The position numbers and the translations under genes are program-made. Below are positions 47,372 through 50,218 of a stretch of DNA of 64,000 bases, piece by piece. The notes under the pieces were generated by a model, which saw only the letters and a program-made list of their open reading frames with translations, had not been told where the DNA came from and did no database searches. The stretch lies in NCBI GenBank assembly GCA_001464455.1, contig LNEI01000019.1, positions 62,001 to 126,000 of the forward strand, given 5' to 3'. The DNA comes from Acidobacteria bacterium Ga0077534 (GTDB lineage Bacteria; Acidobacteriota; Blastocatellia; Pyrinomonadales; Pyrinomonadaceae). Positions within the stretch are counted from its first letter, which is position 1. Every line of letters begins with the position of its first letter.

Positions 47372-47765
47372 GCGCGACGTTCTCTACATCGATTATATTC
47401 ACGCTGTCGATCTTCATTTTGAACTTATGCACGTCTGGAATGAGACGCGTTTTGGTGTGGGAGATCGGGAGTTGATCGAGTCCGCTCTTGCCCGCCCAAG
47501 GCACTCGGCTGTTTATGAAAACGCCGACATAGTGCGTCAGGCAGCAACGCTTTGTTTCGGTCTTATAAAAAATCACCCTTGGATCGGCGGAAACAAACGT
47601 ACGGCGACTCTTCTGATGGAAGAATTCCTGTACATAAATCGGCTCGACCTTGTCGCTTCCCCTCAAGAACTTTACAAAATGTCTCTCGCCGTCGAATCGA
47701 ATAAATGGAAGGTCGATGAGATAGAACTGTGGTTGAGAGAAAAGGTAAGAAACTTAGAGCCATGA
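47364..47765 (+). CDS. doc: Doc/Fic family (death-on-curing) toxin
   Basis: LIKNHPWIGGNKRTATLLMEEFL matches the Doc HPFxxGNKRTA motif. Confidence 0.92.
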   Translation: MTKRDVLYIDYIHAVDLHFELMHVWNETRFGVGDRELIESALARPRHSAVYENADIVRQAATLCFGLIKNHPWIGGNKRTATLLMEEFLYINRLDLVASPQELYKMSLAVESNKWKVDEIELWLREKVRNLEP

Positions 47766-48859
47766 TAAAAGTCATGCTAATTGCGGGTGCACGGCCTAAT
47801 TTTATGAAGGTGGCGCCGATATATGCCGAGATGAAGCGGCGGCCGGGTGAATTTGTGCCGATGATCGTGCATACGGGACAGCATTATGATGCGGCTATGT
47901 CGGATGCTTTTTTTGACGATCTCGGGATGCCGAAGCCGGATATTCACCTCGGCGTTGGGTCGGGGTCGCATGCGGTTCAGACGGCGAAGATAATGACTTT
48001 GTTCGAGCCGGTGGTGCTCGAGCATAAGCCGGACTGGGTTTTGGTTGTGGGTGATGTTAACTCGACTATCGCCTGTGCTTTGGTCTGTTCAAAACTCGGG
48101 ATCAAGATCGCTCATGTCGAGGCTGGCCTGCGTTCGCGGGACCGGGCGATGCCGGAGGAGATAAACCGTATTTTGACCGATTCGATCTCAGATCTACTGC
48201 TTACGACCTCGCAGGATGCGGACGAGAATCTTAGGGCCGAGGGCGTTCCGTCGGAGCGGATCAGGTTTGTTGGCAACGTAATGATCGATTCGCTGCTCGA
48301 GCACCTGAAGATTGCGGAAAACTCGACCATTCGCGAAGATCTAGGCGTTTCAGCCCGCAATTATGCGGTGATGACGCTGCATAGGCCTTCGAATGTCGAT
48401 GACAAAGCGACATTCGGCGGCTTGCTCGAGGCGTTGATAGAGATCGCTCAGGAGCTGCCGATCGTCTTTCCTGTCCATCCGCGAACGCGGGCGAAAATGG
48501 AAGAGTTCGGATTCGACAAATTAGTTGCGGGTTCGAATATTCGCCTGATCGAGCCGCTCGGCTATCTCGACTTTATGAGGCTCTACAGCGGAGCCAGGCT
48601 CGTGCTCACGGATTCCGGCGGATTGCAGGAAGAGACGACCGTCCTCGGCATTCCGTGTTTGACGCTTCGCGAAAACACGGAAAGGCCCGTGACGATCGAG
48701 CTTGGCACGAACGTTCTTGTCGGCACCGATCCCCAGAAGATAAGACGTGAGGCAAGGGCGAGCTTGGCCAGCGACACAAAACGCGAATTGCGTGTTCCGC
48801 CGCTTTGGGATGGAAAGGCGTCGGGGCGGATCTGCGACGAGTTGATCAGGGAATCATGA
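47762..48859 (+). CDS. wecB: Non-hydrolysing UDP-N-acetylglucosamine 2-epimerase
   Basis: GARPNFMKVAPIYAEM, VHTGQHYDAAMSDAFFDDLGMPKPD, VEAGLRSRDRAMPEEINR, LTDSGGLQEET, LRENTERPVTIELGTN. Internal start 47762 overlaps the doc stop. Confidence 0.95.
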   Translation: MIKVMLIAGARPNFMKVAPIYAEMKRRPGEFVPMIVHTGQHYDAAMSDAFFDDLGMPKPDIHLGVGSGSHAVQTAKIMTLFEPVVLEHKPDWVLVVGDVNSTIACALVCSKLGIKIAHVEAGLRSRDRAMPEEINRILTDSISDLLLTTSQDADENLRAEGVPSERIRFVGNVMIDSLLEHLKIAENSTIREDLGVSARNYAVMTLHRPSNVDDKATFGGLLEALIEIAQELPIVFPVHPRTRAKMEEFGFDKLVAGSNIRLIEPLGYLDFMRLYSGARLVLTDSGGLQEETTVLGIPCLTLRENTERPVTIELGTNVLVGTDPQKIRREARASLASDTKRELRVPPLWDGKASGRICDELIRES

Positions 48860-48902: not shown

Positions 48903-49316
48903 TTACTTTTTTGAGGCTGTCGGGAAGCCTTCCTGCTTCCAGCCTTGAAAACCGCCTTTTAGTGCAAACACATTCGTGATACCGCTTTGGTGAATTTGGA
49001 ATGCCAGCCTGGCACTCGAGTTTTCGTTCGGTCAGGAACAATAAACGATTATCTTCTTTCCTTTTGGCAGTTTGCTGAAGCGGTTGCTCTCAGCACCCTC
49101 GATGATCACAGCGCCTTTGATGTGTTCTTCCTTGTAAGCCTCAACGGAACGCGAGTCAACAAAGACGGCGTTGCCCTCATCAAGAGCCTTCTTGGCATCC
49201 TCGATAGTTATGCGCGGGACATCAGAGTCGCTGGCGATCTTCTTGGTTTCGGTTGATTGGCCCAGAGCAAGTATGCTCGAACCCAGTAAAAGTGCTAATG
49301 CGATGAGCAGTTTCAT
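48903..49316 (-). CDS. Rhodanese-like protein with predicted selenocysteine (in-frame UGA at 49034..49032)
   Basis: ORF track stops at 49032, but the same frame continues to TAA at 48903: ...GKKIIVYCS-U-PNENSSARLAFQIHQSGITNVFALKGGFQGWKQEGFPTASKK. This completes a rhodanese fold. SECIS-like hairpin follows the UGA. Confidence 0.85.
48999..49017 (-). promoter_or_regulatory. bSECIS-like hairpin (first rhodanese)
   Basis: GAGTGCCA-GGC-TGGCATTC, starting 14 nt after the UGA. Confidence 0.75.
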
Positions 49317-49325
49317 TCCAGCCTC

Positions 49326-49763
49326 CTATTTTTGTTGTGGTGTGACGACTGGATAGCCCGCAGCCTTCCAGGCGTTTGGCCCGCCGACCAGTGCGTAAGT
49401 TCCCGGGATCTGTTTCTGGTTCATTTTGAGTGCCAAACTGGCACTCGTGTGCTCGCCCCCTCAGGAACAGTAGAGGATTATCTTTTTCCCCTTTGGAAGC
49501 TTAGCGTATTCGGTTTCAGGAGCGTTCAGGTCGATCACTACGGCTCCCGGCAAATGTTCGACGTCAAATGCGCCCTGGCCCCGCGTGTCAACAAAAACAA
49601 CGTTTCCCGCATCGAGATCCTTCTTCGCGTCCTGAACGGAAATTCGGGGAACCGCTAGTTCGTTTTCGTATTTTACGTACTCGATCACCGGAGCACTCTG
49701 ACAAGCAAAAACTACTGCTGAGAGCAGAGATGCAATGACAAACAGAAACTTTTTCTTCATCAT
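49326..49763 (-). CDS. Rhodanese-like lipoprotein with predicted selenocysteine (in-frame UGA at 49463..49461)
   Basis: Frame continues past the UGA to TAG at 49326: ...GKKIILYCS-U-GGEHTSASLALKMNQKQIPGTYALVGGPNAWKAAGYPVVTPQQK. SECIS-like hairpin follows the UGA. Confidence 0.85.
49428..49446 (-). promoter_or_regulatory. bSECIS-like hairpin (second rhodanese)
   Basis: GAGTGCCA-GTT-TGGCACTC, perfect 8-bp stem, starting 14 nt after the UGA. Confidence 0.78.
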
Positions 49764-50218
49764 TTTTCTCCGAAGGCTGCGAGAACTTCGTCAGCATGTT
49801 TTGCCACGTCGACCTTTTCAAAGATCTTGACGATCTTGCCGTCGTCGATCAAAAAAGTCTTTCGAAATGTGCCCATGTACTTTTTCCCATACATGCTCTT
49901 TTCGCCCCAAACGCCGTACTCTTCGACGATCTTCTTTTCCGTATCGGCGAGTAGGTCGAACGGGAGCTGATACTTCGAGATAAATTTCTGATGTGACTTT
50001 TCGCTGTCAGTAGAAACGCCAAGCACTGTTATGCCTTTTTCACGATAAACGGCATCGGCGTCACGGAATGAACAAGCCTCTTTTGTACAGCCTGGCGTGT
50101 CATCTTTCGGGTAGAAGTAGAGCACGACGCGTTTACCTTTGAAATCTGAAAGGTTTACGGTGTTGCCGTTCTGGTCATTAGAAGAAAAATCCGGAGCCTT
50201 GTCACCCTCTTTCAGCAT
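49760..50218 (-). CDS. bcp: Thioredoxin-dependent thiol peroxidase (Bcp/PrxQ)
   Basis: GDKAPDFSSNDQNGNTVNLSDFKGKRVVLYFYPKDDTPGCTKEACSFRD. Confidence 0.96.
   Translation of the reverse strand: MLKEGDKAPDFSSNDQNGNTVNLSDFKGKRVVLYFYPKDDTPGCTKEACSFRDADAVYREKGITVLGVSTDSEKSHQKFISKYQLPFDLLADTEKKIVEEYGVWGEKSMYGKKYMGTFRKTFLIDDGKIVKIFEKVDVAKHADEVLAAFGEK

Follow-up and report, generated by a model that had tools for sequence, protein, structure and literature searches.

Two tandem rhodanese genes with in-frame TGA codons are predicted to encode CxU selenoproteins in a Blastocatellia genome

In the 64,000-nucleotide stretch of the Acidobacteria bacterium Ga0077534 genome analysed here (hereafter the window), two neighbouring minus-strand genes, rhodA (48903..49316) and rhodB (49326..49763), almost certainly encode a tandemly duplicated pair of true CxU rhodanese selenoproteins, as judged from their sequences. 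Standard ORF calling cuts rhodA to 49032-49316 (94 aa, ending in ...KIIVYCS) and rhodB to 49461-49763 (100 aa, ending in ...KIILYCS). As originally predicted, both ORFs stop at a TGA placed at the same active-site codon (YCS-TGA; 49034-49032 in rhodA, 49463-49461 in rhodB, both on the minus strand), and in both the same frame then resumes with the missing C-terminal half of the rhodanese domain. When this TGA is read as selenocysteine (Sec), rhodA would yield a single-domain rhodanese of 137 aa, with Sec as residue 95 (C93-S94-U95), and its paralogue rhodB a protein of 145 aa, with Sec as residue 101 (C99-S100-U101); the identity between the two proteins is 43-45%. The read-through ends, ...YCSUPNENSSARLAFQIHQSGITNVFALKGGFQGWKQEGFPTASKK in rhodA (stop TAA) and ...YCSUGGEHTSASLALKMNQKQIPGTYALVGGPNAWKAAGYPVVTPQQK in rhodB (stop TAG), each form a complete rhodanese C-terminus. 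A 33-nt pattern following the TGA, TGANNNNNNGANNANNCGAGTGCCAGNNTGGCA, is common to both genes and, even when as many as 3 mismatches are tolerated, matches nowhere else in the window, 0.00 sites being expected from shuffles.

The region past the TGA behaves like a protein-coding one. Compared with the orthologues of the related genome G097, its dN/dS is about 0.20 in rhodA and about 0.06 in rhodB, rough figures because dS is large, and this agrees with the purifying selection that had been anticipated for the downstream codons. The read-through products match PF00581 (cut-off 22.2) with 66.2 bits for rhodA and 54.8 bits for rhodB. In an AlphaFold2 model built with Cys at the Sec position, pLDDT is 88-97 in each ten-residue block past the TGA, and the active site has the arrangement typical of rhodaneses, with a strand (88-92), a loop (93-98, from C93 to E98) and a helix (99-110). 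Foldseek and phmmer both return rhodaneses, which are also the best PDB matches.

The TGA codon is conserved among homologues. Within a class sample of 162 Blastocatellia genomes, a homologue is present in 134, mostly with one in-frame TGA, and 96 distinct homologues were extracted. At the Sec position, 86 of the 96 have TGA and 10 have Cys, and nothing else is found, so that the search for Cys or U at this position gave only these two states. In the window's own family, nearly every sampled genome contains a homologue, mostly in the TGA form. The Cys form is scattered on the protein tree, where about 7 changes are needed, at least 3 of them forced by well-supported branches.

The distribution of the two forms was compared with that of tRNA-Sec, which is found in 145/162 class genomes. 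Those that are at least 92% complete and have no tRNA-Sec contain either the Cys form (four genomes) or no homologue (three genomes). Eight genomes combine the TGA form with no tRNA-Sec match, and all of them are at most 90% complete. In a phylum-wide sample, tRNA-Sec is found in 32/32 genomes with the TGA form, against a base rate of 238/396, while 3 of the 6 genomes that contain only the uninterrupted form are without it. In one relative, four tRNA-Sec loci exceed the cut-off and two of these lie 2 kb apart, which is unusual for a bacterium.

The source assembly (4.2 Mb, 97.9% complete) has the machinery that such genes would need. Looking for selA, selB, selC and selD, we found SelA (546 bits), SelB (381 bits) and SelD (363 bits), together with a tRNA-Sec with anticodon UCA (71 bits), located on the window's own contig. 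In the selD gene of this genome (L019, G000:C28:52253-53176), too, a TGA lies in frame close to the N-terminal end (MVDCAG-TGA-VAKL), and selenophosphate synthetase is therefore also a predicted selenoprotein (DCAG-U-VAKL). The UGA codons of rhodA and rhodB would be decoded by SelB and tRNA-Sec with the help of a short SECIS hairpin located just 3' of the UGA.

A bSECIS-like hairpin is indeed present in both genes, as had been suggested, and it covaries. It is formed by GAGUGCCA-GGC-UGGCAUUC in rhodA (48999..49017, minus strand; apical-loop G at +23) and by GAGUGCCA-GUU-UGGCACUC in rhodB (49428..49446, minus strand). Both hairpins start 15 nt past the TGA and have an 8-bp stem, a 3-nt loop and a UGA-to-loop spacing of 22 nt; folded alone, they reach -10.2 and -13.4 kcal/mol, respectively, and they match the published bSECIS model (PMC13188914). 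When 61-nt stretches were folded and compared with dinucleotide shuffles, the hairpins were not unusually stable (z -1.34 and -0.50). Thermodynamic stability was therefore set aside as sole evidence, being uninformative at 61 nt, and synonymous-recoding and covariation tests were used instead.

In all 86 TGA genes the pairs 19-29, 20-28 and 21-27 are intact, +20/+28 and +21/+27 being invariant C-G pairs, and a G occupies position +23 of the apical loop. The stem draws on an Ala codon, and this codon is GCC in 85/86 TGA genes (the exception being ACC), compared with about one third GCC across the same genes as a whole; it is GCC in only 1/10 Cys genes, in which this stretch is free to vary. Synonymous recoding likewise gives a fold z of -1.65 for TGA genes versus -0.01 for Cys genes. 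The pair 18-30 is C-G in 42, T-A in 28 and otherwise in 13 of 83 class sequences. It is C-G in 87, T-A in 23, a T-G wobble in 5 and broken in 3 of 118 cross-phylum sequences among the matches listed. Partner-shifted controls are at chance in both sets, and position 30 lies outside the DNA pattern used for the cross-phylum scan. The p-values of this covariation are indicative only, because related sequences are not independent. In TGA genes, synonymous codon choice thus preserves the stem-loop located 19-29 nt past the TGA, whereas Cys genes have lost it; the stem-loop also shows covariation between phyla, and the case for it rests on positional covariation, not on stability. A whole-genome search for further sites with the SECIS pattern gave 15 matches versus 7 in the reversed control and is too unspecific without protein context.

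Two readings without selenium were weighed against these data. That the TGAs could be ordinary stops in decaying copies is suggested by both genes being cut short in standard ORF calling. Such a pseudogene or nonsense-mutation reading was rejected on homologue conservation and selection data and is vanishingly improbable, as 86 homologues share the same codon, purifying selection acts past the TGA, the hairpin covaries and the Sec machinery is complete. With the other 10 of the 96 homologues having Cys, it also holds that a UGA shared by two paralogues is hard to explain by independent nonsense mutations. Reassignment or suppression of TGA (for instance to Trp or Cys) would also account for frames that are open across the TGA in both genes. 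The substitute residue is, however, always Cys and never Trp, TGA serves as an ordinary stop nearby (in bcp, at 49760-49762, and in the wecB-like gene, 47729-48859), and a SelB-type hairpin follows the TGA in a genome that has a tRNA-Sec(UCA); given the Cys alternative and the nearby TGA stops, we rejected this reading as well, at a probability that is close to nil. A genome without Sec machinery, homologues having neither Cys nor U, or an absence of selection downstream could have contradicted the original prediction; each was looked for and none was found, which supports the selenocysteine reading of both rhodaneses. The sequence evidence for the predicted Sec coding, SECIS, fold and conservation is strong.

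Both proteins have N-termini that point to export. That of rhodA is hydrophobic and signal-peptide-like, with no clear lipobox, whereas that of rhodB has a lipobox-like VFA|C at residues 18-21. We infer that mature rhodA and rhodB are exported, rhodA probably being cleaved by signal peptidase I and rhodB probably being a lipoprotein. A lipobox-like N-terminus is found in 85/105 entries including rhodB, by a regular-expression scan only and with some entries duplicated; lipoproteins appear to make up most of the Blastocatellia homologues.

Upstream of rhodB, on the same strand, lies a gene for a bcp/PrxQ-type thioredoxin-dependent peroxiredoxin (49760..50218, minus strand; NF006960 with 171 bits, above its cut-off, and PF00578), which overlaps rhodB by 4 nt (ATGA). 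The rhodB stop in turn shares bases with a ribosome-binding site, GGAGG, that closely precedes the rhodA ATG. Because of these two overlaps, bcp, rhodB and rhodA look like one operon, from which they are probably translated together; a promoter and terminator scan found nothing above chance for it. Among the homologous loci compared, none of the neighbouring genes is widely conserved beyond the genus, and only bcp recurs: it is upstream in 24 homologous loci, almost all from the window's genus, out of 71 for which an upstream gene was called, while loci of other genera have a different upstream gene (purF-like in 16 loci, others elsewhere). Inferring function from neighbours was rejected as a guide, since bcp alone recurs and does so almost solely in this genus. 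The downstream genes of homologous loci are mostly convergent. In the window, the gene convergent to the pair is a wecB-like UDP-GlcNAc 2-epimerase gene (47729-48859, named from its sequence), and the same downstream neighbour is found in 22 homologous loci.

The position of Sec suggests a redox function. It lies two residues past the classical catalytic Cys, within a six-residue loop, C-S-U-P/G-x-E. In 13/13 structured rhodaneses surveyed, this loop ends with Arg, Thr or Ser, and mutants of this last residue in the enzymes tested take up sulfur from thiosulfate poorly or not at all (PMC8533005). The loop-end residue is instead Glu in 96/96 of the homologues from Blastocatellia, which were extracted with a motif that accepted Glu or Gly, and these proteins therefore lack the Arg, Thr or Ser of active thiosulfate sulfurtransferases. 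Because of this Glu, we consider a thiosulfate sulfurtransferase less likely than a periplasmic thiol/persulfide reductase of the Cys-x-Sec type; taken with the lipoprotein-like N-termini, the Glu favours a Cys-Sec redox centre in the periplasm, whose substrates would be disulfides, persulfides or polysulfides. The redox chemistry and the substrate that we infer would be as follows: Cys and Sec could form a reversible selenenylsulfide (Cys-S-Se-Sec), one of the two could accept the substrate's sulfane sulfur or oxidised thiol, and its partner could then resolve the adduct, releasing sulfide or a reduced product. We tentatively propose, at somewhat under an even chance, that rhodA and rhodB are periplasmic thiol/persulfide reductases and not thiosulfate:cyanide sulfurtransferases.

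Two other functions were considered. The rhodanese fold and the catalytic Cys would also suit a Sec-containing sulfurtransferase, in which PspE-like periplasmic sulfane-sulfur carriers would use Sec to speed sulfur release from the Cys persulfide, and PspE is described as a periplasmic single-domain rhodanese (PMC2593051). This is rather unlikely in view of the invariant loop-end Glu, which contrasts with the Arg, Thr or Ser of active rhodaneses (PMC8533005), an argument that applies to thiosulfate as donor. A pairing with Bcp in peroxide metabolism, the rhodaneses for example regenerating oxidised thiols or clearing hydroperoxides through their selenol, is suggested by bcp being the overlapping same-strand neighbour and by its recurrence upstream, and yet it is less probable still: the upstream gene differs in other genera, and no signal peptide is seen in the Bcp sequence, which makes Bcp an unlikely direct partner of exported rhodaneses. 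Returning to the reductase, it is conceivable, and again only tentatively proposed, that exported CxU rhodaneses form a broadly distributed class of periplasmic thiol or persulfide reductases that depend on selenium, in which Glu replaces the sulfurtransferase-type loop end and which the lineage of the window has duplicated into lipoprotein and soluble copies.

As the SECIS of the family holds a fixed position and shows covariation over many phyla, a single 41-nt DNA pattern (YC, TGA, E and the SECIS core) retrieves the family: when about 85,000 species genomes were scanned, a CxU rhodanese was encoded at 118/119 sites among the matches listed. The residues written into the pattern, including Glu, are fixed by construction in this set. 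The matches listed come from records titled Acidobacteria, Chloroflexi, Deltaproteobacteria, Nitrospirae, Gemmatimonadetes, Rokuibacteriota and Gammaproteobacteria.

The duplication is likewise found elsewhere. The same tandem pair is present in the related genomes G097 and G098, and each copy groups with its own orthologues on the tree; the duplication is therefore older than the window's species. Three more tandem CxU rhodanese pairs are found in other Blastocatellia genera, and the duplication may therefore have occurred more than once. That rhodanese-type selenoproteins were already reported in bacteria, as the original prediction stated, is confirmed; the novelty that it left to the duplicated, exported form is weaker than claimed, given these other pairs in the class and the mostly lipoprotein-like homologues.

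The family of rhodA and rhodB is already catalogued, and the two proteins should be placed beside NCBIfam NF041203 (rhodanese_LYCAU, "rhodanese-related (seleno)protein"), which is by a wide margin the best family for both and matches 55/55 scanned members of a broad alignment at E<=1e-10. Both nevertheless miss its curated cut-off of 115 bits (rhodA 97.6, rhodB 76.8); the CxU rhodanese selenoprotein family thus extends well under this cut-off, and two genes misread by ORF calling are now corrected. The loop starts with Cys-x-Sec or its Cys equivalent throughout (CSU in both window proteins, U or C in 96/96 homologues), and predicted selenoproteins of this kind are listed as "Rhodanese-like domain-containing protein form 3, CxU" (PMC13188914) and "COG0607 form 2, CxU" (PMC9312934). 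The window proteins share fold and CxU position with NF041203 but differ from it by their loop (CSU instead of CAU), their sub-cut-off scores and their tandem arrangement. TsoB (NF045694, UxxxxU, Rhodanese/DsbD fusion-like) is also a rhodanese-domain selenoprotein and gives a weak match here (28.2 bits), but it is a 572-position fusion with two Sec, whereas rhodA and rhodB are single-domain proteins with one. The rhodanese-like selenoprotein forms 1, 2 and 4 (UxxS, UxxG; PMC13188914) have the same rhodanese fold, but their motifs open with Sec, whereas the window proteins keep Cys there and have Sec at +2. Finally, E. coli PspE and GlpE, the latter matching by sequence, resemble the window proteins in consisting of one rhodanese domain whose loop opens with the catalytic Cys; they differ in having no Sec, and the window proteins in ending their loop with Glu.
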